Shown here: positions 18,779 to 64,000 of the stretch, one piece after another
Layout: the number at the start of each line of letters is the position of its first letter
Position numbering within the stretch: the first letter of the stretch is position 1
DNA from: Rhodanobacter sp. B05
Lineage (GTDB): Bacteria > Pseudomonadota > Gammaproteobacteria > Xanthomonadales > Rhodanobacteraceae
NCBI RefSeq assembly: GCF_002001085.1
Contig: NZ_MUNU01000012.1
Coordinates: 124,001-188,000, forward strand
Length of the DNA: 64,000 nt
Direction: 5' to 3'
Position numbers and translations under genes: made by a program
Notes under the pieces: generated by a model
Told to the model about the DNA's origin: nothing
Seen by the model: the letters and a program-made list of their open reading frames with translations, nothing else
Databases searched by the model: none

Positions 18779-18792
18779 GCGCTCGCATCCGG

Positions 18793-30816: not shown

Positions 30817-30821
30817 TGCCG

Positions 30822-34751: not shown

Positions 34752-34756
34752 GGCGG

Positions 34757-40337: not shown

Positions 40338-40439
40338 GTGTCCTCCCCCGAAATGATGCTGGCTTGTTAGTACCGGTGCATCCCCACACACCGGTTCATT
40401 CGCGGCATCCAGGATGTTCCTGGCATGCCTCGTTATCGG

Positions 40440-41281: not shown

Positions 41282-42330
41282 AGACGGACGAACTGCACAT
41301 CGCGAGCGTGGGCGACCCGGCGCGGCACGAAGCCGCCGCCTGGTTCGCGCGACTGCGCGCGGATGACGTCAGTGAGCGAGAACGTGAGGAGTTTCAGCAC
41401 TGGCTGGCGGACAACAGTCGTCATCGTGTGGTCTATGAGCGGCTGGAAGCCCTGTGGTCCAAGCTTGGCGCACATGCCGATCGGCCCGAGGTAGGCAAGG
41501 CGTTGCGCGAAAGCGAGCTGTTGCAGAGGCGCTCCGCCGGGACGCAAAAGCCACGCCGACGGCAGGCGCCGGCGTGGCTTGCCGCCGCGGCATTGCTGAT
41601 CGTGGTACTTGCCGGCGGCTGGTTCACGTGGCGCGCGCCACAGGCCGGCGTGCGCACCTACGCCACCGGCATCGGCGAACAGCGCACGCTGGTGCTCGAA
41701 GACGGCTCGCGCGTCACGATGGACACCGATACGCGGCTATCGGCATCGTTCTCGGCAAAATCGAGACGGCTGGTACTGGAAAAGGGGCGCGCCTTCTTCC
41801 ATGTAGCCAAGGATGCCGGGCGACCATTCCTGGTGACGGCACAAGGCGGCGTGGTGCGGGCGGTCGGCACCCGGTTCGATGTCTACGAGCACGACGACGT
41901 GGTCGAGGTCACCCTGATCGAGGGCCGTGTCGAGGTCACTCCCGAAGGCGGCTCACAAGATCCCCGTGAACGCCCAACGACCATGACGGCCGGGCAGCGG
42001 CTGCTGATGGGCAAGACGTACGTCACGCCCGTCATCGAATCCGCCAACACCGGAACAGCCGTCGCGTGGCTTTCCGGCAAACTGGTGTTCAACGACACAC
42101 CGCTGTCGGCGGCCCTGACCCAGTTCAACCGGTACACCACCTCCAAAATCGTTATCGGTGATGCCGCAGTCGGGCAACTGCGCGTCAGCGGGGTGTTCCG
42201 CGACGACGACAGCCATGCCTTCATCGACGCGTTGCGCAGTTCCTACGGCATATCCATCAGGCACGGCAACGCGGGGAGCCTGACATTGTTCTCCGGAAAA
42301 GCGGTTCAGCGGCATGCTTCCAATGAGTGA
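41278..42330 (+). CDS. M3: FecR-type anti-sigma/sigma regulator
   Basis: A 350-residue FecR protein. DUF4880 region (AAAWFARLRADDVSERERE), a membrane helix near residues 98-118 (PAWLAAAALLIVVLAGGWFT), FecR domain (YATGIGEQRTLVLEDGSRVT, GTRFDVYEHDDVVEV) and a C-terminal STN-like domain with VSGVFRDDDSHAFIDAL. It is coupled to the M3 sigma through an ATGA junction. Confidence 0.9.
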   Translation: MKTDELHIASVGDPARHEAAAWFARLRADDVSEREREEFQHWLADNSRHRVVYERLEALWSKLGAHADRPEVGKALRESELLQRRSAGTQKPRRRQAPAWLAAAALLIVVLAGGWFTWRAPQAGVRTYATGIGEQRTLVLEDGSRVTMDTDTRLSASFSAKSRRLVLEKGRAFFHVAKDAGRPFLVTAQGGVVRAVGTRFDVYEHDDVVEVTLIEGRVEVTPEGGSQDPRERPTTMTAGQRLLMGKTYVTPVIESANTGTAVAWLSGKLVFNDTPLSAALTQFNRYTTSKIVIGDAAVGQLRVSGVFRDDDSHAFIDALRSSYGISIRHGNAGSLTLFSGKAVQRHASNE

Positions 42331-44646: not shown

Positions 44647-44768
44647 GAGGATGACCTGAGCAGGAATAAATTCCGCGCGCCCCAATAGACGGGGCGGGAT
44701 AGTCGCTTCGACGCAAGAGCGGCAGGGACAGGAACTGCTGAGAAAGCTGTTCCTGATGACGACCGGTA

Positions 44769-47453: not shown

Positions 47454-47530
47454 GCAATCCCCCATTGGACAGGAACATCGGCCGCCAATAACCGCTGTCG
47501 TGCAGCAGGCATCGGGCCGTCGTGAACCTG

Positions 47531-47559
47531 TAATGCAGCAGGGTTGGGGAGACCCTACC
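47531..47559 (-). promoter_or_regulatory. M4 receptor: ECF-type promoter motif GGTAGGGT-N14-TGCAT
   Basis: On the minus strand GGTAGGGT is followed after 14 bases by TGCATTA. The other three M4/M5 copies have 13 bases, so this is the least regular member. It lies 78 bases upstream of the receptor start. Confidence 0.55.
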
Positions 47560-47616
47560 TCTTGCGACACACGATACGTCGATCCTTGCACGGGATGAGC
47601 GCGCGCTGCTCCCGAA

Positions 47617-48618
47617 TCACTTGCGGGTCAGCACGATTTCGCCGGCAGTCACGCGTTGGCTTGCATCTATCGACCAACCGTATTCCAGCGCCAAGGCGAA
47701 GGACTTCTGGTCGCCGGCCTTGAAGACGCCGCTGATGGGGACGCTCGCCAAGGCGGAATCGCCCAGGCGCAGCTTGGTGCTGGAGTAGCGGTTCATCTCA
47801 GCCACCACGGCATCCAGTCGCCACGCCTTCACCACCAGGTTGCCCCCGGTCCAGCCACGCGCACTGGCCAGTTCACTTTCGGAGACTGCCTGCAGCGCAC
47901 CGAGTCGGCCTGACGGCTCGATGGCGATGCGCTCGCCCGGTTGCAGCGTGGCCGAGCGGCCAGGACCTCGTGCGTCAGCTGCGACCACGACCTGGCCCTG
48001 CAGGAGCGTCACGATGCTGTCGCTCTCCCCGACACGAACCTGGAAATGGGTGCCGGTCGCGGTTACCGAGCCATCGCCGACATGCACGACGAAGGGCCTT
48101 GTCGTGTCGTGTTGTACCTCGAAGTCGGCCTGGCCATGTTGGAGGGTCAGTTGGCGCGTGTGCTTGTCGATCTGTGCGAGCAGTTCGCTGTCCGTATCCA
48201 GCACCACCCTGGAACCATCCGCCAGGACGACGGTGCGCTGTTCTCCCAGCGCAGTGGCATAGCGAATCCCCGCGACGTCCCTGGGCATGAGTGCCCATAG
48301 CAATACGGTTGCCGCCAACACCACCGAGGCCGCAGCCGCCAAGGCGGGCCACCAGCGCCGGCGGCGAGGCCTACCCAGCCGCACGGCGGGGCGCATGGCC
48401 TCCTGCAGTGCGGCGGCGATGACAGGATCCTCACGCAGATCAGCGCTGCGATCCCAGACATCCGCGACCTCACGGTAGGCTACATCGTGCAAGGGACTGG
48501 CGGCGCGCCAGCGGTTGAACGCGGCACGCTCCAGCTCATTGCAGTCGGGCGCGAGCAATCGCGCGAACCATTGTTGCGCGGCGGTGCGGATCTCGGCATG
48601 GGTGAATGTCGTCGTCAT
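47617..48618 (-). CDS. M4: FecR-type anti-sigma/sigma regulator
   Basis: A 333-residue FecR protein. DUF4880 region (AAQQWFARLLAPDCNELERAAF), membrane helix near residues 92-114, FecR domain (YATALGEQRTVVLADGSRVV, GTHFQVRVGESDSIV) and a C-terminal domain with ISGVFKAGDQKSFALAL. ATG 48618 is chosen because it begins the conserved N-terminus; ATG 48642 is possible and neither has a strong ribosome-binding site. Similar to the M5 FecR. Confidence 0.87.
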   Translation of the reverse strand: MTTTFTHAEIRTAAQQWFARLLAPDCNELERAAFNRWRAASPLHDVAYREVADVWDRSADLREDPVIAAALQEAMRPAVRLGRPRRRRWWPALAAAASVVLAATVLLWALMPRDVAGIRYATALGEQRTVVLADGSRVVLDTDSELLAQIDKHTRQLTLQHGQADFEVQHDTTRPFVVHVGDGSVTATGTHFQVRVGESDSIVTLLQGQVVVAADARGPGRSATLQPGERIAIEPSGRLGALQAVSESELASARGWTGGNLVVKAWRLDAVVAEMNRYSSTKLRLGDSALASVPISGVFKAGDQKSFALALEYGWSIDASQRVTAGEIVLTRK

Positions 48619-48713
48619 GGGATTTCGGTCATCTGCTGCCATGGCGGATCCAGCACCGGCCTGCAGCATGTACGTCAGGCTGGTCTCCCGTCACGAATGC
48701 CTGTGCGCAATCT

Positions 48714-49298
48714 CTACAATGCATCAGCGTTCCCCGACCCCACCTTGCTGCATAGCGCCGCCAGCGCTTTGGTCATGTGTTTTTCGACGGTTTTCACGGA
48801 AATATCGCAGTGGCTGGCGATCTGCGCATAGGTCATACCCTGCATACGACTGAGCAGGTATACCTGTCGACAGCGTATGGGCAACGACATGACCGCATCG
48901 CGCAACCATGCCTGCTGCTGCTCGCGCTCGATCAGTTCTTCCTGTGTCGGCTCCGCGGAGGCCAGCTCCACATCGTCCAACGATACCTGCCGGCTGACCC
49001 GGCGAACGCTACCGCGGCGAAACTGTTCGTTGGCCACATTGATGGCGATGCGATACAGCAACGGCTTCCACGACGCGTCGGGCTCGGTCTCGCGATAGCG
49101 CATCAAACGCATCAGGCTTTCCTGGGCGGCATCCTTGGCATCTTCCTCGTTGGCAACGCGCAGGCGCAGGAAGTGCAACAGGCCGCCATAATGCTCGCGC
49201 GAAAATACCTCGAAGCTGCGCATCCGCTCATGCGGCTCATCCTCCGTCACCGGCAGGTCTCGTGGCATTTCCAGGAAACTGTCGAAGCCATGGGCCAT
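48714..49298 (-). CDS. M4: FecI-type ECF sigma factor
   Basis: A 194-residue ECF sigma. Region 2 contains EEDAKDAAQESLMRLMRY; region 4 contains LPIRCRQVYLLSRMQGMTYAQIA and ISVKTVEKHMTKAL. The start at 49298 (MAHGFDSFLEMPRD) is chosen because the M5 sigma begins almost identically; GTG 49310 and ATG 49307 are in frame. The gap to fecR is 95 bases, so unlike M1-M3 there is no overlap. Confidence 0.86.
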   Translation of the reverse strand: MAHGFDSFLEMPRDLPVTEDEPHERMRSFEVFSREHYGGLLHFLRLRVANEEDAKDAAQESLMRLMRYRETEPDASWKPLLYRIAINVANEQFRRGSVRRVSRQVSLDDVELASAEPTQEELIEREQQQAWLRDAVMSLPIRCRQVYLLSRMQGMTYAQIASHCDISVKTVEKHMTKALAALCSKVGSGNADAL

Positions 49299-49729: not shown

Positions 49730-51841
49730 TCAGCCACCCGAATGAATGCCACTCCGTGCCGATCTGGCCGGCACTGCGTCTCTCATCTCTCGCCAAATGC
49801 GGTATTGCCCGACCTTATCCGGGCTCGGGTCTTCGTATCCCTGTAGCCAGAAGCGGAACCAATCCAAGTTGCGATCATAAACGGCCAGCTTGTGTCGAGG
49901 TTGCGACTTCTGATGCTGCTCATCGGGGAATACGTATAAATCGGCACGGTGCCTTCGAATGAGGGGCACTATAAAGTCCAGTGCGTACCTGAACTCCTGT
50001 TCGGGCATCTGCATCAGGACAGGAGCACGCATCCGCTCGATATGGTAAGTCGGCGAGAGCTGCCGCCAGTGATCCGGTGTTTCCTCAAGGGTACCGAGCT
50101 GCCAATAGCGACGCATGCGCGAGTGCTCCTCCTCCCCACCCAGGCTCATCATCAGGCTACCCATCGGGGTGACCACTGGCGAGCTCACCGATATGGCGCG
50201 AAGCAGATCGGAGTGCATCGCGGTCCATACGGCGACCTCGGACCCAAAGCTCAACCCGCCCATGCCGACGCGGGTCGAATCAATGGCCCCCTGCTTCGCC
50301 AGCAGTGTCACCGCCCCCTCGACCGCCGATAGCCCTTGCTGATAGCGAGCGATCGCATCATCCGACAAGGGTGCGGCGTTGATGCAGAGTGCCGCGATGC
50401 CGCTCCTTGCAAAGGTGGCAAGGGGCCACTCGTCCCCCACACTGCCGCGCAGAAAACCCGTACACCGGTAGTAGACGATGAACAGGGGTGGCGGCCTGCC
50501 GTCTCTCGCGGTCGAAGGATAGAACTGCCCGGTGTAACGCCTACCCTGCGCATCGGTCCAGGTGACGAATTGAACGCGTACAAACTTCTTCATGTCCTGC
50601 GCGAGCACCTGGTTGGGAGCGAAGAGAACCGTCCGACTTCCCGACTCCAGATCGATACGTTCCAGCCTCGGTGGCACATCTGCTTCGGCAGCGACGCACA
50701 CCAGGGCCGAGGCCGAGGCTGCGCATGGCTCCGGCCCCCAGCGCCCACCTCCTGTTATCTGACCACGCGAGCGGACCACCGGCTGCACATCGCCGGTGAC
50801 GACGTTCCAGCGAAAGATCGACTGCTCCAGTTCGCTGTCACGCTCGGACACGGTGAAGAGGATCTCGTCGCTTCCCGGTCGCCAGGCGATGTCGGTGACC
50901 TGCTTGCCCGTGCATGGCTCGGCCGTGCACTTGACCAATCGGCCAGACTTTATGCTGGGCAGCATGGACAGGGCAACGGAACGCTGGCCTGCCCGCCCTT
51001 GCTGATCGCTTTGCTCACGAAGCACCGCAATTCGCTTGCTTCCGCGATCCTCCGCAACCCGCACGATCTCACCGCCAGCAGGCGGCAGGTTGGCAGCCGT
51101 CACCGGAGACTCAGGGTATCGACCCGATGCCAGCTCGGTCGTGACGCCGGTGGAAAGCTCCAGTGCCTTCCAGTGGTCAGGCACACCGGACAGTAGCGGC
51201 AGACGTACACCGCCCTTGAGTCGTTGCGTCGCCAGGCGCCCGCCCTGGAATCCCGAGCGGAACAGCGCTTCTCCAAGCATCACAGTCCGATCGATGTGGA
51301 CACCCCGGTCATACTCGGCGAGCTCGGCATCGATAACCGTCTCGCGTGTGGCACCGACACTGTAATAGAGCACCGAACCGTCAGGATTCAACGAGAAAGT
51401 TCGCACGTTTGCTGTCCCGTACGTGAGCTGCTCGGTACGCGAGCCGTCCGCCGCCGCGCGCCAGACCTCGATTCGCGCGTCATGGACCGCACGGAAGAAG
51501 ATCCACTTTCCGTCGGGCGACCATACAGGTAGCTCCGGCTTGGACGACCCACCGCCGTCCGGCAGCATCTCGCCACCGTCACCCAGACGCCGCGGTGCCG
51601 ATGTGCCGTCGACAGGCTGCACATACCAGACCGTCTCATACGTATTCCGCTCGATCGACGCCTGCTCGGTCCGAAAGGCAACGAGCCGCCCATCCGGTGA
51701 AACCGATACATTCTTGATATCGACAACCTCGACAAGCTGGCGGATGGTCGCAGCGATTCCATACGGAACATGGAGAAGCAGACCCAGCAATCCCGCACAC
51801 GCCAACGCACGCACGGTCCCTGCAGCAATTTTCCCGCTCAT
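49730..51841 (-). CDS. M5: AtxE2-type lasso peptide isopeptidase, divergent
   Basis: A 703-residue isopeptidase with signal peptide (to about residue 30), propeller motifs (SPDGRLVAFRTEQAS, WSPDGKWIFFRAVHDARIEV) and a hydrolase with Ser531 in GGLSFGSE, EQE at 614-616 and His643 in DEQH. The segment after the nucleophile (PMGSLMMSLGGEEEHSRMRR) departs from the tyrosine-rich NYYLLGS pattern of M2 and M3, so its substrate pocket may differ. GAGGTAGTC precedes the ATG. The gap to the receptor is 179 bases. Confidence 0.86.
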   Translation of the reverse strand: MSGKIAAGTVRALACAGLLGLLLHVPYGIAATIRQLVEVVDIKNVSVSPDGRLVAFRTEQASIERNTYETVWYVQPVDGTSAPRRLGDGGEMLPDGGGSSKPELPVWSPDGKWIFFRAVHDARIEVWRAAADGSRTEQLTYGTANVRTFSLNPDGSVLYYSVGATRETVIDAELAEYDRGVHIDRTVMLGEALFRSGFQGGRLATQRLKGGVRLPLLSGVPDHWKALELSTGVTTELASGRYPESPVTAANLPPAGGEIVRVAEDRGSKRIAVLREQSDQQGRAGQRSVALSMLPSIKSGRLVKCTAEPCTGKQVTDIAWRPGSDEILFTVSERDSELEQSIFRWNVVTGDVQPVVRSRGQITGGGRWGPEPCAASASALVCVAAEADVPPRLERIDLESGSRTVLFAPNQVLAQDMKKFVRVQFVTWTDAQGRRYTGQFYPSTARDGRPPPLFIVYYRCTGFLRGSVGDEWPLATFARSGIAALCINAAPLSDDAIARYQQGLSAVEGAVTLLAKQGAIDSTRVGMGGLSFGSEVAVWTAMHSDLLRAISVSSPVVTPMGSLMMSLGGEEEHSRMRRYWQLGTLEETPDHWRQLSPTYHIERMRAPVLMQMPEQEFRYALDFIVPLIRRHRADLYVFPDEQHQKSQPRHKLAVYDRNLDWFRFWLQGYEDPSPDKVGQYRIWREMRDAVPARSARSGIHSGG

Positions 51842-52020
51842 GACTACCTCGTAATTTGGTAAGCGACGCCAGCCGGGCAAGCTGCGGCGAGGCCGACAGA
51901 TCGGACTGGCGCCCGAAGTTGAGGAGCACCCTGACTTCCCTGCAAGGCAGGAAGGCGCTGTCCGGCCAGTCCACCCATCCGGCACCCCGCCCTGCCCGCA
52001 CTGCGGATCACACAGGCCTG

Positions 52021-54687
52021 TCACCACCGCTTGGACATGGACAGGCTCACGAATCGACCGATGGCCGAATAGTTGGTCGAGTCGTACGGCGGCTGATCCG
52101 ACGAAAGAACCACGTAGGACGGCGGCTCCCGGTCCAGCAGGTTCTGCGCAGACAGCGCCACCTCGATGCCTGACAGGGCACCTGTCGATTGACTGGTGAC
52201 GTAGCGCAACGTGGCATCGAACGTCGTGAACGAAGCCGTCTTGCGGCCACTCACGCGGTCCGTCACACCGCTTCTGTAGTTGGCAAAGGTGGAGGCTGAA
52301 AAGCCGCCCTGGCTCCACACTGCACCAGCCCGGGCGTTGACCCTAGCGGGATTGAAGAGAGTCCCGGCCACGTCGTAGGGCGCCTGCGTGGCTGAGTTCT
52401 GCTGCGTGCTATCGAGCCAGGTTGCGGAACCGCGCACCGTGAGCATGCCGGCACCGAGATCGAAGCGATTGGACGCACTTAAATCCAAGCCCTTGACGCG
52501 CTGACTGGCAACATTGACGTACTGGTTGTACAGGATGGCCACAACGTTATTCGGGTCGTATGGGAGGCCTGAGTAGTTGTAGAACGCGGCAGAAGAGTCG
52601 ATTGCGCTCTGGGTCGCCTGCGGCGTCGGCGCGTAATCGATGAACTGGACATAGTCCGGGTTGCCGATCGCACGGCTGTAGTCGGTGATCGGCTGCACCA
52701 CGCGGTTGGTGTAATCGACGTCGAACCAGGTCAGCTCCGCCTCCAGCCCCTTGAGCGATTCCGGGTGGAAAGCCAGGGAAATGCTCTTGGTGGTAGCGCG
52801 CTCTGGCTCCAGATCCGGATTGCCGCCAGAGAGTTCCAGCGCAGCGGCATTGGGCCCGCCAGTCGACCCACCGTAATAGCTTTCAGGATCCAACACGGCC
52901 GACTTGGCCTGGAAGCGCTGGAGCAGCGTCGGCGCCTTGAAGGACTTGCCCCAGGACGCTTTCAGGGTGAAGTCCGCATTGGGGCCATAGATAAGGCCCA
53001 CTTTGGGCGTGGCGACGCGGCCAAAACTGCTGTAGTCCTCCCCCCTCACCGCAGCCGTCAGGTCCAGACGACGGATGCCGATGATCCCCTGCTCCGATCC
53101 GACAAGGGGCAGGCTCAGCTCCGCGTAGGCAAACCGACTGCTTTCCTCGCCCCGTGTGGTGTCGACGCCCACCAGCAGGTTGTGTTGGGTGTACTCGTTC
53201 TTCCTGTAGCCGGCACCGACTGCAAGGCGGGCGTCGCCACCCGGCATGACCATCAGCGGACCTTCCGCTCCCGCCTCCCAGGAGAGCGCGCGGTTGCAAT
53301 AGCAGTCACGGACGAAGGTCTGGGACGCGGACGAGCCGATGTCCACGATTGATTCTCGCGGGATGCTTTCATCCCTGCCCCAGCTACCACCCATCGACAG
53401 CGTCCAGTCGCCGGCCAACGAGATATCCAAGGTAGGTGCGACCAGAGAGGTCTTCGTTTCAGTGTTCACGTGAAAGTAGTAGGGGGCCAGGCCCGAATTC
53501 CAGGGATACATGTCCTGCGAACGCGTGGTTCTCAGCGCATCCAGCCGAAATTCCACGGACTCCCCGAACGACTGGTGTGCGCTGACCAGGCCGCTGCGCA
53601 GCTTGCTCTGCGGATAGAGCGTATTGGGATCAAACATGTAATCGGTGTAATCACGCTGGCGCGCATAGATCGGATCGGTCGAGGTGTCCTGGAAGGTGGC
53701 AAGCAGCCCGCCGTTGGACCAGCGGGCGCCGGCGGTGGCGGTGTACTCCCGCGTGGCCAATCCGCCATCTGTCGCGCCGCCATAGCGCACCCCGACCTTC
53801 GCCCCCTCGTAATCCCGCTTTAGGATGACGTTGCCCACACCGCCAACTGCGTCCGAGCCATAGATGGCCGAAGCCCCGTCCGGGACGATCTCAATGCGAT
53901 CGACCGCCTCCACAGGGATGGCGCTGATGTCCACCGCCTGCACGAAGCCGCCATAGGAAAGGCGCCGCCCATTGAGTAGCGTGAGGGTCGCATCCGGCCC
54001 CAGCCCGCGCAGGTTCAGCGACGAGCCACCCGTGATGTTCTGGTTTGCAATGCCCCCTGCCCCGGCTGTCGCGCCAACGACAACACCCGGGTTCTGCCCT
54101 CCACTGAAATTCTGCGGCACGCTGCGGATGACCTCGCCGAGGTCCGTGAACCCCTCCTCCTGCATCTGCTCGCTGCCGATCGAGATCACCGGCGACGGCG
54201 TGGTGCCGCCGCGGATGCGCGTGCCCGTAACGGTGACAGTTTGCAGCGTGGTCGGCTCAGGCTTCTGATCGGATTTCTCCGTCTGTTTATGCGGAGACGC
54301 GGCAGGTTTCGCCTTGGCTGGTTTTGCAGCCTTACCGGACTGCTTGATCACGACCGTGGTGTCGTTGACGAAACCCCACTCCAATCCGCTGTCCGCCAGC
54401 ACTTTCTGCAACGCTTCACGCCATGTTTGCTGGCCGCTTACCGCCGGCGCCGTCTTGCCGCGCACCAGTTCCGACGGGTAGATGATCTGCACCTTGCTCT
54501 GGCTGGCGAGTTGATCGAGCGCATTGGCCAGATCGCCTGCGGAAATGGCGTAGGCCTGCGGCGCATCGTTGCGCTGCGCCCAGGCCGGCGCGGTACAAGT
54601 CACCAGCGCCAGCAACAGCACGCCGCACAACGTGCGGCGCATCGGTGCCGAACGCTGGCTGCCAACGTTTCCCTTCGATGCCTTCAT
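52021..54687 (-). CDS. M5: TonB-dependent receptor with STN signalling domain
   Basis: An 888-residue receptor with signal peptide to about residue 38, STN domain (YAISAGDLANALDQLASQSK to NDTTVVIKQ), a linker close to that of M4, plug from VTVTGTRIRGGTTPSPV, and a barrel with a CYCN motif (53293-53304) ending LSMSKRW. GGGGGAGATTCG precedes the ATG. The promoter motif at 54760-54787 lies between fecR and the receptor. Confidence 0.9.
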   Translation of the reverse strand: MKASKGNVGSQRSAPMRRTLCGVLLLALVTCTAPAWAQRNDAPQAYAISAGDLANALDQLASQSKVQIIYPSELVRGKTAPAVSGQQTWREALQKVLADSGLEWGFVNDTTVVIKQSGKAAKPAKAKPAASPHKQTEKSDQKPEPTTLQTVTVTGTRIRGGTTPSPVISIGSEQMQEEGFTDLGEVIRSVPQNFSGGQNPGVVVGATAGAGGIANQNITGGSSLNLRGLGPDATLTLLNGRRLSYGGFVQAVDISAIPVEAVDRIEIVPDGASAIYGSDAVGGVGNVILKRDYEGAKVGVRYGGATDGGLATREYTATAGARWSNGGLLATFQDTSTDPIYARQRDYTDYMFDPNTLYPQSKLRSGLVSAHQSFGESVEFRLDALRTTRSQDMYPWNSGLAPYYFHVNTETKTSLVAPTLDISLAGDWTLSMGGSWGRDESIPRESIVDIGSSASQTFVRDCYCNRALSWEAGAEGPLMVMPGGDARLAVGAGYRKNEYTQHNLLVGVDTTRGEESSRFAYAELSLPLVGSEQGIIGIRRLDLTAAVRGEDYSSFGRVATPKVGLIYGPNADFTLKASWGKSFKAPTLLQRFQAKSAVLDPESYYGGSTGGPNAAALELSGGNPDLEPERATTKSISLAFHPESLKGLEAELTWFDVDYTNRVVQPITDYSRAIGNPDYVQFIDYAPTPQATQSAIDSSAAFYNYSGLPYDPNNVVAILYNQYVNVASQRVKGLDLSASNRFDLGAGMLTVRGSATWLDSTQQNSATQAPYDVAGTLFNPARVNARAGAVWSQGGFSASTFANYRSGVTDRVSGRKTASFTTFDATLRYVTSQSTGALSGIEVALSAQNLLDREPPSYVVLSSDQPPYDSTNYSAIGRFVSLSMSKRW

Positions 54688-54803: not shown

Positions 54804-55802
54804 CTACTTGCGCTGAAGCACAATCTCGCCCGGCGTGCGGCGGTCGACGCGGATGGGCCAGCCGTATTCCAGCGACAGCAGGAACGAGTGCTGGTCGCTG
54901 GCTTTGAAGCTGCCGCTGATCGACAACGTGCCCAGGCTGGGGTCGCCCAGGCGCACTGGAACACTGGTATAGCGGTTCATTTCCGCTACCAGACGTGCCA
55001 ACGGCCATTCCCGCACGACCAGCATGCCTTCGGTCCAGCCGCGGGCCCTGGCCAGTTCGGTATCCGCCAGACGTTCGGGCGTACCGAGCCGGCCATCCGA
55101 CTGGATGGCGACGCGTTCACCGGCATGAAGCGTCATCTGCTCGGAACTGCTCGGCTTCGCGTCGCCGGCTACCACGACCCGCCCTTCCAGCAGGGTGACC
55201 GTGTCGATGCCGGCCGCCGCTCGCACCTGGAACTGCGTGCCGGTAGCGGTGACGGTGCCGTCGCCGACGTGCACGACGAACGGTCGTGCCGTGTCATGGC
55301 GCACCTGGAAATCGGCCTGTCCGTGCAGCAGCGTCAGCCGGCGCTCGTGCTTGCCGTACCGCACTTGCAGGTCGCTGTTCGTATCCAACACGACATGGGA
55401 GCCGTCGTCCAAAGCCAGCGTGCGCTGCTCGCCCGTCGCGGTGGCGTATGTGACTACCGGCGCGTTTCCAGGCGTATTCCACTCGTAGTAGCCAACGCCG
55501 ATCGCCAACACGAGGCAGGCGGCCATCGCCAATGCCGGCATTGCACGCTGCCGCCATGAGCGTTCGGGTGGCAAACAGCGCGCCTGGTGCAGCAGGTGCT
55601 CCAGGCTCGGATCGGTGCCAAGCGCGGCGCTGCGCTGCCAAACGTCGCTCACCATGCGATAGGCCGCGTCGTGCGCCGGCTCGGCCGCACGCCAGTGCTC
55701 GAAGGCCGCGCGCTCGCCCGCACTGCAGTCGCTCGACTGCAGGCGCAGCAGCCAGTGCTGCGCAGCGCTGCGGACTTCGGGTTGAATGTTGCCGCCGGTC
55801 AT
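54804..55802 (-). CDS. M5: FecR-type anti-sigma/sigma regulator
   Basis: A 332-residue FecR protein. DUF4880 region (AAQHWLLRLQSSDCSAGERAAF), membrane helix near residues 92-112, FecR domain (YATATGEQRTLALDDGSHVV, GTQFQVRAAAGIDTV) and a C-terminal domain with ISGSFKASDQHSFLLSL. ATG 55802 follows GGACGGAATCCG, 22 bases after the sigma stop. Clearly paralogous to the M4 FecR. Confidence 0.88.
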   Translation of the reverse strand: MTGGNIQPEVRSAAQHWLLRLQSSDCSAGERAAFEHWRAAEPAHDAAYRMVSDVWQRSAALGTDPSLEHLLHQARCLPPERSWRQRAMPALAMAACLVLAIGVGYYEWNTPGNAPVVTYATATGEQRTLALDDGSHVVLDTNSDLQVRYGKHERRLTLLHGQADFQVRHDTARPFVVHVGDGTVTATGTQFQVRAAAGIDTVTLLEGRVVVAGDAKPSSSEQMTLHAGERVAIQSDGRLGTPERLADTELARARGWTEGMLVVREWPLARLVAEMNRYTSVPVRLGDPSLGTLSISGSFKASDQHSFLLSLEYGWPIRVDRRTPGEIVLQRK

Positions 55803-55824
55803 CGGATTCCGTCCATGCGGGTAT

Positions 55825-56406
55825 TCATGTAGATGCACCGGATTCCCAAACCCCTGCCTTGTCGCACAACGCGACCAGCGCGGTGGCCAGGTGCTTTTCG
55901 ACCGTCTTCACGGAAATACCGCACCTGCGCGCAACCTCGCCCTGGCTCAAGCCGTCGATCCGCACCAGCACAAACACCTGTCGGCAGCGTGGCGGCAACG
56001 ACAGCATCGCTTCGCGCAGCCACGCCTGCTCCTGCGCATGTTGAATCGCCAAGTCGAGCGGTGGTGCAGGGTCCGCCAGCTCGACCGTTTCCACCTGCAC
56101 GTTCTGCTTGTCCCGATGCGACTGGCTGCGCCGGTATTGCTCGTTGAGCAGGTTGCGGGCGATGCGGTAGAGCAGCGGTCGCCATGCTTCGGCCGGCTCG
56201 CTATCGCGATAGCGGAGCAGCCGCGTCAGGCTCTCCTGCGCGATGTCGCGAGCATCTTCCTCGCCGGTGCGCAGACGCAGAAACTTCAACAGCGGGGGGT
56301 GTTGCTCGCGCAGGAAAGCGTCGAAACCCTGCAGGCGATCGCGCAGTTCTTCGTCCACGGAGAAGTCCCGTGGCATTTCCATGAGGCTGTCGTACCCGTG
56401 GGCCAT
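55825..56406 (-). CDS. M5: FecI-type ECF sigma factor
   Basis: A 193-residue ECF sigma, the paralogue of M4 sigma. It starts MAHGYDSLMEMPRDF, has region 2 with EEDARDIAQESLTRLLRY and region 4 with LPPRCRQVFVLVRIDGLSQGEVA and ISVKTVEKHLATAL. The chosen ATG 56406 equals the M4 sigma start; the frame stays open for another 129 codons upstream but crosses the promoter motif. Confidence 0.87.
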   Translation of the reverse strand: MAHGYDSLMEMPRDFSVDEELRDRLQGFDAFLREQHPPLLKFLRLRTGEEDARDIAQESLTRLLRYRDSEPAEAWRPLLYRIARNLLNEQYRRSQSHRDKQNVQVETVELADPAPPLDLAIQHAQEQAWLREAMLSLPPRCRQVFVLVRIDGLSQGEVARRCGISVKTVEKHLATALVALCDKAGVWESGAST

Positions 56407-57449: not shown

Positions 57450-58079
57450 ATGGATGAGATCCACTCCAAGAGTGTATTCGTGTACGGACAGGTCAAATGC
57501 GCCCTGCGGTCAGGGCGCTACGCACCCGGGCAGCGGATCGATCCCGCCACACTCGCCGCAGAGTTCCACACCAGCCCCACGCCAGTTCGATTCGCCCTGT
57601 ACCGTCTGGTCGGCGAGGCCCTGATCGTCGATCATGCCCGCGACGGACTGCACGTCCCGTTGCTCAATGAGGTCACACTGCGCGATCTCTATGACTGGAT
57701 GGAACGCCTGTTGCTGATGGCATGCGATATCGGCACAGCGCCGGCAGCCCGGAAGACAGAGCTGTTGGAGCTTGCATCCGCCGACGAGGATCTCGTCAAG
57801 CTTACGTGGCAACTGTTCGACACGATCGCCCGCGCGACCGCCCATTGGTCCTTGCACCATGCCGTCAAGCAGGCCAACGACCGGCTGGCGCCGATACGCG
57901 GGGCCGCGCAAGGATTGCTCGAGCACCGTTTCGAAGAGCTTTCGAAACTGAACCGGCACTGGCAGGCACACGACATGCCGGCCCTGAAATCCGCACTGCG
58001 CGACTATCACGAACGCCGCAAGCAACTCGTCCCATGCATCGTGGCCCTGCTGAGCGAGCGCAGCGAGCACCTTCATTGA
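57450..58079 (+). CDS. GntR-family transcriptional regulator of the lasso cluster
   Basis: A 209-residue regulator. The N-terminal winged helix (residues about 8-70: SGRYAPGQRIDPATLAAEFH, TSPTPVRFALYRLVGEAL) is typical of GntR proteins, and the C-terminal part is all-helical and FadR/FCD-like. GGAGTTGAGCT precedes the ATG. It lies 170 bases upstream of the lasso precursor on the same strand, so it is the obvious candidate for local control; inverted repeats in that gap are candidate operators. Its effector is unknown. Confidence 0.85.
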   Translation: MDEIHSKSVFVYGQVKCALRSGRYAPGQRIDPATLAAEFHTSPTPVRFALYRLVGEALIVDHARDGLHVPLLNEVTLRDLYDWMERLLLMACDIGTAPAARKTELLELASADEDLVKLTWQLFDTIARATAHWSLHHAVKQANDRLAPIRGAAQGLLEHRFEELSKLNRHWQAHDMPALKSALRDYHERRKQLVPCIVALLSERSEHLH

Positions 58080-58249: not shown

Positions 58250-58390
58250 ATGAAGACGAACGAAAATATCCGCAACGACACGTCGGAAGACGTCATCGTG
58301 CTTGGCGTTGCCAGCATCGAAACCAAAGGGCCTGGCGGAGCCATCGAGAGCTTCGGCGGCGCTCCGCTTGGCGGCATCTCCGATGCATAA
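58250..58390 (+). CDS. lasso peptide precursor, xanthomonin-like
   Basis: A 46-residue precursor. The 26-residue leader ends VIVLGVASIETK, matching the LGxAxxxTKG pattern of proteobacterial lasso leaders with Thr at -2. The predicted core is GPGGAIESFGGAPLGGISDA. Gly1 supplies the amino group. Glu7 is the only acid at positions 7-9, so a seven-residue ring with a 13-residue tail is predicted; Asp19 is too far for a normal ring. As I recall it, xanthomonin I also has Gly1-Glu7, Gly-Gly at 10-11 and a GIS(E/D) end. Tail trimming cannot be judged. AGGAG lies before the ATG. It is too short for ordinary gene calling. Confidence 0.92.
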   Translation: MKTNENIRNDTSEDVIVLGVASIETKGPGGAIESFGGAPLGGISDA

Positions 58391-58395: not shown

Positions 58396-58419
58396 AAGGC
58401 GCGCCGAAAGGCGCGCCTT
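58396..58419 (+). terminator. attenuator hairpin between precursor and processing genes
   Basis: AAGGCGCGCC, a GAAA tetraloop and GGCGCGCCTT form a ten-base perfect stem followed by a short T-run (TTTTA). It starts five bases after the precursor stop. A partial terminator here would give excess precursor mRNA over the enzymes, a layout found in lasso clusters. Confidence 0.8.
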
Positions 58420-58437
58420 TTATCTGGAGTGATGCAA

Positions 58438-59112
58438 ATGACCCAACTCAGACTGCATCGTGACCTGTCCTACTGCAGAGTCGATGACCACCTGATCTTC
58501 CTCGACATCCAGAACGACCGCTACTTTCGTCTCACTGAGTGCATGGAGTCTGCGTTGGCCACTTATCTGGATGGTGATGTCCCAGACAGCAGCATTCGTA
58601 GATTGATCGAACGAAAAATACTGATCGACGAACGAGTCGAGCCCGATTGCACACCTCTCTCATTCACAAAAACTCCTACGCGTAGTGCGATGGAAGAGGT
58701 TGTTCATCCCAGGCGGGCAAGCGTCGGCGAGCTACTGGACACCTTCGCAATCGCCTGCTCAATACAGCGACAACTGAAAACCCATAGTCTGAAGCAGACC
58801 CTTCGAAATCTTTCATCTTTTCGAGAAAAGCGGACGTCTCAAGCTTCAATGTCTCGCCCAAGCGAGGCCAATGTCCTGGAGGCAGCTGCTGCTTTCCGCA
58901 GCTCGCGCTTGTACGTCCCAATAGATACGTGCTGCCTTCTCGATTCCATCGCGATGGTCAAGTTCCTGGCCAAGCGTGAACTGCACGCCGATCTCGTCTT
59001 CGGCGTGACAGGAAACCCGTTCTCCGCGCACTGCTGGGCACAACACGACACCACGGTTCTGAATGACGCCTTGGGACACGCGTTAGCCTTCACGCCCATA
59101 AAGGTGATCTGA
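58438..59112 (+). CDS. lasso peptide B protein (RRE leader-binding domain fused to leader protease)
   Basis: A 224-residue fused B protein. Residues 1-75 form the PqqD-like RRE that binds the leader (LDIQNDRYFRLTECMESALA). The C-terminal half is the transglutaminase-like protease with Cys166 in DTCCLLDSIAMVKFL, His198 in FSAHCW and Asp210 as likely triad. It removes the leader after Thr(-2)-Lys(-1). ATG 58438 is preferred over GTG 58429 and ATG 58432 because CTGGAG lies eight bases before it. It overlaps the cyclase start by one base (TGATG). Confidence 0.9.
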   Translation: MTQLRLHRDLSYCRVDDHLIFLDIQNDRYFRLTECMESALATYLDGDVPDSSIRRLIERKILIDERVEPDCTPLSFTKTPTRSAMEEVVHPRRASVGELLDTFAIACSIQRQLKTHSLKQTLRNLSSFREKRTSQASMSRPSEANVLEAAAAFRSSRLYVPIDTCCLLDSIAMVKFLAKRELHADLVFGVTGNPFSAHCWAQHDTTVLNDALGHALAFTPIKVI

Positions 59113-60860
59113 TGGACAACGATTACATCGCCATTTTAACGCCCGCCGAAGAAGGCACCGACGCGAAATTTCCCACCCTGACTGACCCGCTCTATGCGAT
59201 GGGTATGCGCGTCCATTATGCGTCGGGCACACTGTCCCTGTTCGGCACGGAGAACATGTCGACGTTGTCACTGCCAGGCGGCGGGATACTCATCGGCCAC
59301 CTGTTTACGCAGGACGGGATCGCTGTCCATGACGGCGCAGGGTTCCCAAGGCTTTCAACTCCAGCGCAGATCCAAAAGCACATCTTGGAAAATTACTGGG
59401 GCTCTTACCTCATTATCCAACCCGATACACGAGATCCCGGCGGGTTCACGATGACGCGTGCCCCGTCAGCCGCCGGTAATCTTCCATGCATCTGGTCAAT
59501 AAGGGACGGAGCTGGCTTCCTTACGTCAGACGTTTCCCTGGCGATCCGAGCCCTTCTCTACCGAAAGCAGATCAACTGGGACTTCATCGCTCATCGTCTG
59601 AGGTACCCCGACATAAAAACGGAGCGCACTGGATTTGCTGAGCTTGTCGAGTTGCTGCCTGGGTGTTCGCTGCGTACAAGTGGCTCCAAGGTATCGGTCC
59701 AGCAAGCGTGGTCGCCCTGGGATTTCGTCGCTCGTGAACACCGCTACCGTGACTTGCACGATGCTGCAGACCAGATCCGTCACGCAGTCGAAAGCGCCGT
59801 CCACGCATGGACGGGCATGGACCGGTCCATATTGCTGGAATTATCCGGCGGCCTCGACTCCTCCATCGTCGCGGCATGTCTACGGAATCGCCATGCGCGC
59901 GTCATCTGCTGCAACCTGGTTACCCCGGTTCCCGGGGTGGACGAGCGGCAGTACGCTCGCCAGATGGCCAGGAAGCTCGGCGTCGAGCTCCACACAGAAC
60001 GCCTTGGCTTCGATAAGGCACGTTTCGACTTCACACCATCTCCCGACTCCGTAGCTCCTACGATGGGACCATTGCAGTACGTAGTGGACAAGGCCATGGA
60101 GACCGCCGCCGAATACCACGGCACCACCGCTTACTACACGGGAGGAGGAGGTGACTCGGTGTTCTGCTATCTCCGGACCGCAGCCCCCAGTACTGATGCA
60201 TGGAGAGCCCATCGTTTCGGCACCGCCATCACCGCCGTAAGGGACTTGGCCAGCCTGCACCAATGCACATTCTGGAAGGCAGGCCGCTTTACCCTCTCCA
60301 AACTGCGGCGACCGCCTCAATCTCCCGTCCATCAAGATCCCGCATTCCTTGCACCAGGTTCGGCATATGTGGAGCCGGAAGCGCACCCATGGTTTGCGGC
60401 TCCCATGAATGCGTTACCGGGGGACCGGGAGCGAATATTCGATCTGGCTGGGAATCAGCTCTTCGAGAGCCAGGCAGCACGTGGATACAGGCGGCCTTTA
60501 AGGTTCCCACTGCTATCACAACCCGTCATGGAAGCCTGCCTCCGCGCACCGAGCTGGATGTGGATCGCCGGGGGCAGGAACCGCGCGGTCGCACGAACCG
60601 CGTTTTCCGACCTTTTGCCAGCCGACGTGCTGAACCGCCAAAGCAAGGCGACCTACATGAGCTACCTGGGCGCTATCTATGAACGAAACAAGCATCAGAT
60701 CGAAGACTTCCTTCTGTCAGGTCGCCTCAGGTCACAAGGCCTTCTGGACACATGCGCCATCAGCTCCTTCGTTTCAAAGCCTTTGCCGCCGCGCGATAGA
60801 ACCTTCCTGAGAATGTTCGACTTGTGCATGGTCGAGAACTGGGTCCGCCATCAGCACTAG
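59112..60860 (+). CDS. lasso peptide macrolactam synthetase (asparagine-synthetase-like C protein)
   Basis: A 582-residue AsnB homologue. The N-terminal glutaminase-like domain lacks the catalytic Cys2 (it starts MDNDYIAIL), as in lasso cyclases. The C-terminal ATP-pyrophosphatase domain has SGGLDSS at residues 245-251 and a conserved GGGGDSVFCY. It adenylates the Glu7 side chain and closes the amide with Gly1 around the threaded tail. Translation is coupled to the B gene. Its TAG stop shares the CTAG tetranucleotide with the stop of the convergent M6 isopeptidase. Confidence 0.92.
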   Translation: MDNDYIAILTPAEEGTDAKFPTLTDPLYAMGMRVHYASGTLSLFGTENMSTLSLPGGGILIGHLFTQDGIAVHDGAGFPRLSTPAQIQKHILENYWGSYLIIQPDTRDPGGFTMTRAPSAAGNLPCIWSIRDGAGFLTSDVSLAIRALLYRKQINWDFIAHRLRYPDIKTERTGFAELVELLPGCSLRTSGSKVSVQQAWSPWDFVAREHRYRDLHDAADQIRHAVESAVHAWTGMDRSILLELSGGLDSSIVAACLRNRHARVICCNLVTPVPGVDERQYARQMARKLGVELHTERLGFDKARFDFTPSPDSVAPTMGPLQYVVDKAMETAAEYHGTTAYYTGGGGDSVFCYLRTAAPSTDAWRAHRFGTAITAVRDLASLHQCTFWKAGRFTLSKLRRPPQSPVHQDPAFLAPGSAYVEPEAHPWFAAPMNALPGDRERIFDLAGNQLFESQAARGYRRPLRFPLLSQPVMEACLRAPSWMWIAGGRNRAVARTAFSDLLPADVLNRQSKATYMSYLGAIYERNKHQIEDFLLSGRLRSQGLLDTCAISSFVSKPLPPRDRTFLRMFDLCMVENWVRHQH

Positions 60861-63025
60861 GGTGCGCCCTGTTGCACAATGTGCCTCTGACGCATACTCG
60901 AACGCATTGAACGCCAGCGGGCGTATTGCTCTGCCTTTGCTGGGTCCGGGTTCTCATACCCCTGCAACCAGAACCGGAACCAGTCCAGGTTGCGCGCATA
61001 CACGGCGAGCTTATGTCGGGGCTGAAACTTGTTGTGCGGCTCGTTGGGAAAAACATAGACGTCCGCTCGATTATTCAGCATCATCGGAATGGCGTAGCCG
61101 AGTGCAAACATGTATTCCTGCTCAGGAAATTGCATCAGTATCGGGGCGCGGATCTTTCCCAGGTTTAAGGTCGGCGAAATCTGTTGCCAGTGCGCCGGCG
61201 TCTCGTCCGGGGCTCCCAGTTGCCAATTCGATCGCAGCACCGACCAGAATGACTTGCCGATGTTGCTGCCCAGCAAGTAATACATCGACGACGGGGTAGG
61301 CGACGCCACCGACGACGCTGCAATCACATCGGAGTGGATGAGCGTCCACATCGTTACTTCGCTGCCGAAGCTGAGCCCACCCATCCCAACCTTCGATTTG
61401 TCGATCCGGCCTTCCGATGCGAGCAGATGCACCACACTCTCCACGGCCGACTGCCCCATGCTGTAGCGTTTATCGGCGTTGGGCGAGAACGAGGGCGCGT
61501 TAATGCAAAGCGTGGAGATGCCCTGTTCCGCCATCGTGGCCAACGGCCACTCGTCGCCGGCCCCTCCCCGGACGAAACCAGTGCACCAGTAGTAGGTAAC
61601 GAACAGCGGCGGTGGTGTGTTACCACTCCCGCGCGCCGAGTAGAACTGACCAGTGAACGTCCTCCCTTTCGCGTCCGTCCAGCGCAACAGTTGTGTCGGA
61701 ATCCTGGCGAGGTCCTGTGCCAGAGCCTTGTTGGGGTCGAACAGCACCTGTCGCGCGCCGGTTTGCAAGTCGACCCTTTCCAGCCGCGGCGGGCGATTCG
61801 CATTGGCTGTCACGCACGCCAGCACCTTGGATGACGCGCCACAGGTGCCGGATTCCCAACGCTCTTCCCCACCGAACAGACCACTGGACGTGGCGACCAG
61901 ATGTACCGCACCCGTTTCTACATTCCAGCGATAGATGGACTGGGCGAACCCCTGGTCGTACGGCGTCACGGTGAAAATCACTTCGTCGGTCCCGGGGCGC
62001 CACTGCACACCACTGATCCTCTTGCCGATGCACGCCTCCGCCACGCATTTCACCAAGTGGCGCGCGTCCCGGGCCGGCAACATGGCCAGCCCGATCCGCA
62101 GCCGGTCCGTCCTTACTCCCGTGCGCGTCAGCAGCGCGATACGTCCACTTTTGCGATCGCGTGCCAGTTTCCAGACGTGAGGCACCTGCTTGGCGAGATC
62201 CGACGCTGCCAGCGCCGCAGGGAGCCTTTCGGACGGTGCGAGATTCCGCACCACCCCACTCGCCAGATCGACCACCTTCCAGCGATCTGGCACATCGGCG
62301 GTCAGGTCGACCCGATTGAACATGAAACCGAGACGCTGGGTGGTGGGGCGCCCTTCGATATAGCCGGATCGGAACAGGGGCTGCCCTAGTGGCGTGGATC
62401 GGTCGACGCGAATGCCACGGTCGTATTCGGCCTGCTCCGCCGCAGCCACTTCCTCGCGAGTCGGCCCGACGCTGTACTTCAGTACCTTGCCGTCATCGCT
62501 CAGTACAAAGTTCCGCACATCGGCGCCGCCGCTGGTCATACGCTCGGCGGCCGTGTCGTCGACCGAAGCACGCCAAACGTCGATGCGGCCATCCAGACGG
62601 GCGCGGTAATAGATCCAGTGCCCGTCCGGCGACCAAACCACCGTAGCCGGCAATGCGACACCGGCAGAGTCGCGCAAGGGGACCCCACCATCGCTCACGC
62701 GCTGCGCCGGCGACGATCCGTCCACCCGCTGGATATACCAAGCGGTATCGTAGATATCGCGTTCGATCGACGCCCGTGTCACTCGGAACGCGACATACGC
62801 TCCGTCCGGTGACACCACGGGGCTGCTGAAGTCCGCGATCTCCACCAGCTGCCGTGGCGACACCGCGAATGCCTGGGTGGTTGCGGCGAGCACGCCCAGC
62901 AATACTCCTGCGCACAGAACACGCCCGGCGATGGCTCGGAATGAAACCAAACGCCATGACCTGATTCCAGTTTCAGTAGGACTATGTACGGCCCGCTCAG
63001 TACGGCCCGGTTCACGACGCCGCAT
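60857..63025 (-). CDS. M6: AtxE2-type lasso peptide isopeptidase of the biosynthesis cluster
   Basis: A 722-residue isopeptidase with an Arg-rich N-terminus and a hydrophobic signal helix near residues 33-55, propeller motifs (SPDGAYVAFRVTRAS, WSPDGHWIYYRARLDGRIDV) and a hydrolase with Ser552 in GGLSFGSE, EQE at 635-637 and His664 in NEPH. It is convergent with the cyclase gene and should open the peptide made by this cluster. The ATG at 63025 overlaps the receptor stop by one base (TGATG). The tail (RHIVQQGAP) lacks the SGG end. Confidence 0.9.
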   Translation of the reverse strand: MRRREPGRTERAVHSPTETGIRSWRLVSFRAIAGRVLCAGVLLGVLAATTQAFAVSPRQLVEIADFSSPVVSPDGAYVAFRVTRASIERDIYDTAWYIQRVDGSSPAQRVSDGGVPLRDSAGVALPATVVWSPDGHWIYYRARLDGRIDVWRASVDDTAAERMTSGGADVRNFVLSDDGKVLKYSVGPTREEVAAAEQAEYDRGIRVDRSTPLGQPLFRSGYIEGRPTTQRLGFMFNRVDLTADVPDRWKVVDLASGVVRNLAPSERLPAALAASDLAKQVPHVWKLARDRKSGRIALLTRTGVRTDRLRIGLAMLPARDARHLVKCVAEACIGKRISGVQWRPGTDEVIFTVTPYDQGFAQSIYRWNVETGAVHLVATSSGLFGGEERWESGTCGASSKVLACVTANANRPPRLERVDLQTGARQVLFDPNKALAQDLARIPTQLLRWTDAKGRTFTGQFYSARGSGNTPPPLFVTYYWCTGFVRGGAGDEWPLATMAEQGISTLCINAPSFSPNADKRYSMGQSAVESVVHLLASEGRIDKSKVGMGGLSFGSEVTMWTLIHSDVIAASSVASPTPSSMYYLLGSNIGKSFWSVLRSNWQLGAPDETPAHWQQISPTLNLGKIRAPILMQFPEQEYMFALGYAIPMMLNNRADVYVFPNEPHNKFQPRHKLAVYARNLDWFRFWLQGYENPDPAKAEQYARWRSMRSSMRQRHIVQQGAP

Positions 63026-64000
63026 CACCAGTGCTTGGAGATAGAGAGGTTGAGATAGCGGCCGATCGCCGAGTAGTTGGTCGAGTCGAACGGCGCATAT
63101 ATGCGCGCGGTGGCAGCGCCATAGTGCGAAATGACGTCGTAAAGAGGCGGCGCCCGATCAAGGGCGTTACGCACCGACAACTCCAATGCCAGGTTGGACC
63201 ACGCGTCATCGCGCGTACCGGTGTCGTAGCGTAGCGTGGCGTCGAAGGTGGTAAACGAGGCGCCATTCCTGCCGTCGATGGTGTCGGTGACCCCGCTCTT
63301 GTAGTTTCCAAATACCGAAGCGGTGAAACCGCCCTGCTGCCAGAGCGCCCCAATCCGGCTGTTGATCCTGGCTGGGTAGAACAGCGTGCCTGCTAAATCG
63401 TACGGGCTTTGCGCCGCCGTTAGGGACTGTGTGCTGTCCAACCAACTGGTCGAGCCACGGACCGTCAACTGCCCCACGCCCAAGTCAACTCGATACGATC
63501 CCGACAAATCGACCCCCTTGATCCGTTGCCGGGACGCATTGACATACCGGCCATCGGCGATCGCCACGACCTTGCTGGCGTCGTAAGGTGCACCTACGTA
63601 GTTGTAGAAGTTGCTAACGTTTGCAAACGCCTTGGCCAACACTGCACTGGCGGGGTCGTAGTCGACAAAATCCGCGTAGATCGGATTGCCGAGCACATCG
63701 TTCGTGGTAATGGGCTGTAGAACACGCTGGGTATAGTCGATATCGAACCAGGTCAGCTCCGCCTCAAGGCCGGATAGCACCTCCGGGTGAAATGCCAGCG
63801 AGGCACTCCATGTCCGTGCCCGCTCCGGGTGCAGGTTCGCGTTTCCACCCGTCAGCCATAACACCGTGGCATCCTTTGGATAACCGGTGCCCCCCAACGC
63901 CGCCGCTGGGTAGTAGATGGCGTTCTGGGAGAAATAGCGTTGCAGGAGCGTAGGCGCCTTGAACGACTTGCCCCATGAGGTCTTCAACGAGAAATCGGCA
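63025..64000 (-). CDS. M6: TonB-dependent receptor, C-terminal part
   Basis: The last 324 codons of a receptor that continues beyond the right edge. The visible barrel (SWGKSFKAPTLLQRYFSQNA, ELTWFDIDYTQRVLQPIT, NARYVNASRQRIKGVDLSGS-like strands) closely resembles M1 and M2 and ends LSISKHW. Whether it has an STN domain or a sigma-fecR pair cannot be seen. It is coupled to the M6 isopeptidase. Confidence 0.9.
   Translation of the reverse strand, partial: ADFSLKTSWGKSFKAPTLLQRYFSQNAIYYPAAALGGTGYPKDATVLWLTGGNANLHPERARTWSASLAFHPEVLSGLEAELTWFDIDYTQRVLQPITTNDVLGNPIYADFVDYDPASAVLAKAFANVSNFYNYVGAPYDASKVVAIADGRYVNASRQRIKGVDLSGSYRVDLGVGQLTVRGSTSWLDSTQSLTAAQSPYDLAGTLFYPARINSRIGALWQQGGFTASVFGNYKSGVTDTIDGRNGASFTTFDATLRYDTGTRDDAWSNLALELSVRNALDRAPPLYDVISHYGAATARIYAPFDSTNYSAIGRYLNLSISKHW

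Follow-up and report, generated by a model that had tools for sequence, protein, structure and literature searches.

Surface signalling of the FecIRA type joins an ECF sigma factor, a FecR protein and a TonB-dependent receptor that bears an STN domain, and bacteria with xenosiderophore (pirate) receptors keep many receptors beside one product of their own. Clusters for isopeptidase-type lasso peptides resemble siderophore systems, as stated in the accessible part of PMC9266682, and a siderophore-like role has been proposed for these peptides (accessible parts of PMC9266682 and PMC11006600). According to the same portion of PMC9266682, the isopeptidases tested cut only the lasso peptides of their own cluster, and two isopeptidases were able to open one chimeric lasso, so that isopeptidase specificity is not absolute. 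We analysed a window of 64,000 nucleotides from Rhodanobacter sp. B05 that shares with the astexin, sphingopyxin and benenodin clusters, as described in the accessible text of that paper, a GntR regulator, a precursor gene (A), B, C, an isopeptidase, a TonB receptor and sigma/anti-sigma pairs, but that adds five sets of isopeptidase, receptor, FecR and sigma factor without A-B-C, at least two of them matching the clusters of other strains. Like FecIRA and xenosiderophore receptor systems, the window has ECF sigma factors, FecR proteins, STN-bearing TonB receptors and many receptors against one product; unlike them, its predicted ligands are lasso peptides and each module brings a ring-opening peptidase. 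In the open-licence literature, judged by titles, the starts of abstracts and passages, and with key isopeptidase papers outside this scope, we found no description of orphan isopeptidase-receptor arrays or of lasso piracy. The receiver array and the head-tail mosaics among its receptors are a new arrangement of known parts.

The lasso precursor and its ring

The precursor A has 46 amino acids, with MKTNENIRNDTSEDVIVLGVASIETK as leader and GPGGAIESFGGAPLGGISDA as core, and AGGAGA stands 11-6 bases 5' of its ATG. It matches the Pfam Subterisin model (2.8e-14) and the NCBIfam model of the benenodin-family lasso peptides (1.6e-11), both over the curated cut-offs, and hence this open reading frame is not a chance one. 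The initial annotation had read it as a lasso precursor with Thr at leader position -2 and Glu7 as the sole normal ring acid. The reading of the frame, the two profile matches and the B, C and isopeptidase context bore out the precursor, and direct reading confirmed the Thr; as Glu7 and Asp19 are the only acids of the core, position 7 is indeed the sole normal ring acceptor. The features of a class II isopeptidase-type cluster are present together: Thr at -2, Gly1, an acid at 7-9, adjacent B1/B2 and C, an isopeptidase and a TonB receptor (Table 1). We take CLLDS and HCW in the B1-B2 fusion and SGGLDS in C to be the catalytic motifs. A GntR match also lies near most related lasso loci. On the + strand, the stem of the hairpin between A and B finishes in the first two T of TTTT, a T run short of the scanner's terminator rule; the terminator scan reported the hairpin on the - strand only, with 2 sites against 0.8 expected from shuffles. 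Seven small open reading frames of the window fit a loose precursor pattern, and the leader motif occurs solely in the one at 58250. The whole genome, an assembly of 19 contigs rated 99.99% complete, holds a single precursor match, a single B2 match and exactly six isopeptidase matches (23/23 candidates scored).

To place the ring, we pooled 63 distinct cores from the loci of the family and from 46 loci found in a scan of named genomes (Lysobacterales), with three Sphingomonas loci excluded. The collecting pattern demanded a leader motif and a core that starts with Gly and has an acid at one of positions 7-9. Within this sample, the usable acid sat at 7 only in 47/63 cores, at 8 only in 8/63, at 7 and 8 in 7/63 and at 7 and 9 in 1/63, and Gly10 was found in 54/63. 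In the window's family, the precursor model matched 31 of 233 genomes at E <= 0.01, 29 of them above the cut-off. The seven-residue ring had been introduced as the rarest lasso class, which fails for this lineage, and we ruled out a rare or new ring class for the precursor, as 47/63 collected cores have the same feature. The ring GPGGAIE had likewise been taken as new: this exact ring is absent from the other 62 collected cores, but the close rings GPGGFIE, GPGGVIE, GPGGSVE and GPGGPTE occur among them. A search for the core, foreseen in the initial annotation, found no identical one among those collected, the nearest, GPGGFIENFGGSPLGGISEA, being identical to GPGGAIESFGGAPLGGISDA at 16/20 residues.

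Xanthomonins I-III and related lassos of Lysobacterales with seven-residue rings share with the window Gly1, Glu7 as ring acid, Gly10, a GISxx end, a leader ending in ETK with Thr at -2, a fused B and a convergent isopeptidase with its receptor. They differ in that the window core is new among those collected and that its peptide is known from genes alone. Sequence and gene context favour the xanthomonin-like peptide with a predicted Gly1-Glu7 ring that had been proposed, a claim that is partly supported overall. A lasso with a seven-residue ring was predicted for Stenotrophomonas acidaminiphila in 2015 (PMC4675943); it has the same leader type and ring prediction, and we recovered its core in locus L070, but that core is GILQGNEPMGGEPVPGISEE and the paper reports no receiver array. 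Huascopeptin is called the first Gly1-Asp7 macrocycle in a reference title in the accessible part of PMC13352647. Given the 2015 prediction and the 47/63 cores with an acid at 7 only, the window peptide belongs to a known type, and the predicted product is a new but unremarkable xanthomonin-type peptide.

Two observations concern the sample itself. The 63 cores include that of L076, where a Rhodanobacter-type precursor, B and C share a 3.1-kb contig assigned to Paenibacillus dendritiformis, probably a contamination of that assembly. Tandem precursor pairs occur in L086 (4556, 4733), L051, L056, L068 and L073, and in L051, L056 and L073 both tandem cores carry acids at 7 and 8.

Putative receiver modules and their relatives

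Each of modules 1-5 pairs an isopeptidase and a TonB-dependent receptor with a FecR protein and an ECF sigma factor, as in a FecIRA-type set (Table 1). This array, at 21992-56343, went unmentioned in the initial annotation, which covered the precursor alone. Precursor, B and C genes and remnants of them were sought between and near modules 1-5, and none was detected. All six isopeptidases of the window score 596.7-669.1 bits, above the 400-bit cut-off of the NCBIfam equivalog model, in-frame stops are absent from these six genes and from the receptors of modules 1-5, and Ser and His occupy the presumed active-site columns in 67/67 aligned isopeptidase rows. The STN domain of module 2 scores 25.7 bits, below the Pfam cut-off of 28.4. 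For module 6, beside the operon, a FecR or sigma gene was sought in the 10 kb upstream of the receptor and none was found.

Table 1. Coordinates of the lasso operon and of the six isopeptidase-receptor modules in the window
Feature	Position	Strand	Basis or relation
Module 1 isopeptidase	21992..24172	-	NF033523 match
Module 1 STN TonB-dependent receptor	24183..26960	-	barrel 82% to L032, N-terminus 94% to L098_2
Module 1 FecR	27036..28055	-	domain match
Module 1 ECF sigma factor	28052..28513	-	domain match
Module 2 isopeptidase	28726..30990	-	92% identical to L091 isopeptidase (core GGTGQSEANGFPVIPGISED)
Module 2 TonB-dependent receptor, weak STN	30822..33473	-	barrel 94% to L091, N-terminus 77% to L099_2
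Module 2 FecR	33588..34787	-	domain match
Module 2 ECF sigma factor	34784..35218	-	similarity to module 5 sigma only
Module 3 isopeptidase	35413..37530	-	669 bits
Module 3 STN TonB-dependent receptor	37632..40391	-	domain matches
Module 3 ECF sigma factor, divergent from receptor	40784..41251	+	similarity to module 5 sigma only
Module 3 FecR	41278..42330	+	domain match
Module 4 isopeptidase (matched part 42556-44649)	42529..44931	-	NF033523 match
Module 4 STN TonB-dependent receptor	44769..47591	-	domain matches
Module 4 FecR	47617..48669	-	domain match
Module 4 ECF sigma factor	48720..49229	-	similarity to module 5 sigma only
Module 5 isopeptidase (open frame to 52318)	49730..51916	-	86% identical to L100 isopeptidase
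Module 5 STN TonB-dependent receptor	52021..54687	-	barrel 93% to L100, N-terminus 88% to L096
Module 5 FecR	54804..55838	-	profile match
Module 5 ECF sigma factor	55825..56343	-	profile match
GntR-family regulator, upstream of A	57450..58079	+	profile match
Lasso precursor A, 26-aa leader and 20-aa core GPGGAIESFGGAPLGGISDA	58250..58390	+	ORF reading and profile matches
10-bp hairpin (8 G-C pairs, loop of 4), between A and B	58396..58419	.	hairpin scan and direct reading
B1-B2 fusion: PqqD-like domain and leader peptidase	58432..59112	+	B2 model 2e-20; CLLDS, HCW motifs
C, asparagine-synthetase-type macrolactam cyclase	59112..60860	+	profile match; SGGLDS motif
Module 6 isopeptidase, Atxe2-type, convergent with A-B-C, presumed cognate	60857..63028	-	NF033523 632 bits, cut-off 400
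Module 6 TonB-dependent receptor with STN, 917 aa	63025..64000, continues beyond window (L078:7026-9779)	-	

The surroundings of the array hold several features of their own. G+C is 0.63-0.70 over 1-20000 and 0.59-0.64 from 20001 onward, a shift at ~20000 that might fit an acquired region. Left of the array, 14148-18097 encodes a family 18 glycosyl hydrolase and then two MacB/FtsX-type permeases. In an upstream extension of the module 5 sigma frame, 56593-56754 (- strand) matches DUF3363 (4.6e-7, barely above cut-off), a domain known from relaxases; this stretch, which separates the array from the producer operon, may be a disrupted mobile-element gene. Right of the window, L078:12253-16874 encodes a 609-aa type II-like DNA methyltransferase (PADLOC 2.1e-128), followed by a 931-aa protein that has no PADLOC match, perhaps a restriction-modification locus adjoining the lasso array.

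Among the 233 genomes of the family, 30 hold at least 41 isopeptidase matches above cut-off, to which module 1 is added, and order-wide a close isopeptidase is present in at least 45 of 397 genomes. These two scans scored up to 5 and up to 2 candidates per genome, respectively, and their totals do not give copy numbers. Thirty of the 42 family isopeptidases lie beside B and C (that of G149 placed there from match coordinates only) and 12 are without adjacent A-B-C, namely modules 1-5, L096, L097, two in L098, two in L099, and L101. The genome of L101 has a producer on another contig, where no isopeptidase was found in the 4.5 kb past C, and L101 may be the displaced cognate module of that producer. 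The L097 genome has no B2 match, and for its receptor, which has an STN domain, FecR and sigma genes were sought and not found; L097 may be a relic. The remaining ten orphans, in four genomes, carry STN, FecR and sigma.

Upon surveying signalling parts across 68 receptor rows, 55 with a precursor within 7 kb and 13 orphan, we obtained a division. STN, FecR and sigma are all lacking in 42 of the 55 precursor rows, with STN alone in 9, FecR and sigma without STN in 2 and all three in 2, as judged with queries that were the window's own sequences, so that diverged producer copies may be missed. All three occur in 10 of the 13 orphan rows, STN alone in 2 and none in 1, the last being L102, a producer that adjoins B and C where its contig ends. 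The 55 precursor rows stand for 53 places (L045 with L103 and L038 with L090 are doubled), and they include a second receptor of L072, for which a precursor but neither B nor C was found alongside, and L069, for which an isopeptidase was not found. A Pfam check for STN in 10 producer receptors agreed with the survey, with 9 lacking the domain and L091 just below cut-off. Hence, producers appear mostly to have a plain receptor and no signalling pair, and receivers a full surface-signalling set.

Some lasso loci in relatives depart from the usual makeup. The compared stretches of L042, L047, L059 and L076 have no isopeptidase. At L072:10022-12462 a receptor comes after a second precursor, and neither B nor C was detected in the interval; L069:880-6469 holds A, B, C and a receptor, the isopeptidase not being found. 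In L089, a second lasso locus in G143, the C match is shortened, and on the stretch examined neither an isopeptidase nor a receptor was found; it is perhaps a decaying duplicate of L088, the cores of the two being one residue apart.

Foreign counterparts and mosaic receptors

Two modules closely resemble lasso clusters in other Rhodanobacter-group genomes. Module 2 is 0.916 identical in isopeptidase and 0.943 in barrel to cluster L091 (core GGTGQSEANGFPVIPGISED), and module 5 is 0.860 and 0.930 identical to cluster L100 (core GVLPIGNEFMGHAATPGITE); these and the following identities exclude L103 (a second L045 copy), the L078 copy of the module 6 isopeptidase, the receptor cut off by the window's edge, and the L074 and L075 receptors. 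A precursor for GGTGQSEANGFPVIPGISED or GVLPIGNEFMGHAATPGITE was not found in the window's genome. We predict that the ligand of module 2 is GGTGQSEANGFPVIPGISED or a close relative, and that of module 5 GVLPIGNEFMGHAATPGITE. We take the L100 core GVLPIGNEFMGHAATPGITE to be rhodanodin, a name that, in the accessible parts of two papers, is in print (PMC11639067, PMC7549694). For modules 3 and 4, the best producer identity is just 0.61-0.68, and module 1 is discordant, its barrel being 0.825 identical to L032, near the class of the strain's own product, and its isopeptidase 0.625 to L057.

Isopeptidase and barrel agree in class more often than shuffling would give: the nearest producer by either is of the same class in 9/12 orphans (shuffles mean 2.6, 1 in 5000 reaching 9), and in 42/51 producers the two agree likewise. 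Modules 2, 3 and 5 are concordant (module 3 at only 0.67), and the three discordant orphans are modules 1 and 4 and L097. Isopeptidase identity tracks core identity over the 51 producer rows (Mantel r 0.62, 0/2000 permutations as high), a correlation from which shared ancestry was not removed. These rows stand for 50 places, as L038 and L090 are one; both tests further excluded Sphingomonas L074, L075 and L077, and the concordance orphans excluded L102, the producer at a contig end. The isopeptidase tree was built by a quick method with no bootstrap, and two long branches within its three Sphingomonas rows are unsafe. On it, the 12 orphans are spread over the clades of the producers with 11 label changes, at least 9 of them forced by starred branches, and the orphan labels are not more clustered than shuffled ones (mean 11.2). 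The producer nearest to the second module of L098 is L051. The L098 genome (matching MAG FW106_bin.6) and L051 (Rhodanobacter sp. FW104-R8) presumably bear names from one field site, which we treat as a lead only.

We scanned the modules for DNA identity in 200-bp steps. Module 5 follows L096 at 87-94% from sigma via FecR into the STN part of the receptor, falls to 83-74% for three steps past the STN and stays at 51-68% for the rest of the barrel and the isopeptidase. Compared with L100, the picture is reversed: the sequences are unalignable or 38-44% identical before the border and then 86-96% to the isopeptidase end, with lower values of 78% where the border falls and 69% close to the receptor/isopeptidase junction. 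In module 2, we found a head 72-90% identical to L099_2 and a tail 89-97% identical to L091 (last step 80%). The head of module 1 is 86-94% identical to L098_2 (one step 67%) and its barrel 73-88% to L032, and its isopeptidase evidently comes from elsewhere than this L032-like barrel. At the protein level, the N-terminal parts are 88% identical for module 5 and L096, 94% for module 1 and L098_2 and 77% over 140 residues for module 2 and L099_2, despite different barrel classes. L096, L098_2 and L099_2 themselves have tails like L093, L051 and L095, respectively, where the matching heads are absent. As the pattern recurs in separate genomes, a single assembly error does not explain it. The switch point is close to where the conserved part of the plug begins, at the STN/plug border. 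The receptors of modules 1, 2 and 5 are thus, by their sequences, mosaics of a signalling head from one lineage and a ligand-binding barrel from another, and it seems that a new receiver is formed when a sigma-FecR-STN head is fused to a plug-barrel tail, the tail usually bringing its isopeptidase.

Over 10 comparisons dN/dS was 0.13-0.42. Six of these set modules 2 and 5 against their producers, and 5/6 gave 0.16-0.24; the four other pairs gave 0.13-0.23. The value of 0.42 belongs to the module 2 receptor against L091, where unrelated N-termini increase dN.

Probable piracy and its alternatives

We consider it probable that the strain produces a single lasso peptide of its own while it detects, takes up and linearises several foreign ones, much as in siderophore piracy. 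What the sequence establishes is that the genes are there with open frames, that precursor and B2 each match once, and that the relationships and mosaics hold; from this we infer which ligands are bound, that they are imported, signal and have their rings opened, and that the cell benefits. The A-B-C genes would yield a single class II lasso peptide whose ring most likely links Gly1 and Glu7; module 6 would presumably re-import this peptide and open it. At modules 1-5, a foreign lasso peptide would bind the TonB-dependent receptor, whose STN domain would signal via FecR to the ECF sigma factor and so switch the module on; the peptide would then be imported and its ring opened by the cognate isopeptidase.

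Modules 1-5 would look the same if the receivers imported and destroyed the lasso peptides of competitors in order to silence or disarm them, the peptide itself bringing no gain: identical gene content is expected, the isopeptidases destroy the knot, and sequence cannot tell such quenching from piracy. A dedicated importer for a harmful molecule would, however, be an odd shield, and the known lassos of isopeptidase clusters, astexin-1 excepted, are without antimicrobial activity according to the accessible part of PMC9266682, and we regard quenching as unlikely. The modules might also be the remains of complete lasso clusters stripped of A-B-C, given that producers have isopeptidase-receptor pairs beside A-B-C and that L097, with its STN receptor without FecR and sigma in a genome without a B2 match, is as a relic might look. 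Decay does occur, as an isopeptidase fragment with a stop (G167:C54:13786-14016) follows the two intact modules of L098 and could be a third, decayed receiver. Yet as precursor rows mostly lack STN, FecR and sigma (42/55 carry none), relics should mostly lack them too, whereas 10 orphan rows carry all three; moreover, the five window modules are stop-free in isopeptidase and receptor, modules 2 and 5 have low dN/dS values, and remnants of A, B and C were undetected between the modules. This origin is, in our view, improbable.

We give a similarly low probability to paralogues that act on the strain's own peptide (trimmed forms or threading states) or on non-lasso substrates. The barrel of module 1, in the class of the strain's own product at 0.825 to L032, would suit them, but modules 2 and 5 are far nearer to the cognate pairs of other strains than to module 6, and isopeptidases are reported, in the accessible text of PMC9266682, to be specific for the product of their own cluster.

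Piracy of foreign lasso peptides, our preferred reading, could benefit the receiver cell through bound cargo, amino acids, information or a silenced rival. The window offers a testable idea of what isopeptidase-type lasso peptides do for their makers: as modules 2 and 5 can each be paired with a specific foreign peptide from the genomes, a siderophore-like role is directly testable. The mosaics, for their part, suggest a simple rule for the change of receptor specificity. More tentatively, and with slightly less than even confidence, we propose that isopeptidase-type lasso peptides may be goods shared or stolen between strains, with one made per strain and several receivers possible, the receivers being rebuilt by swaps of head and tail at the STN/plug border.
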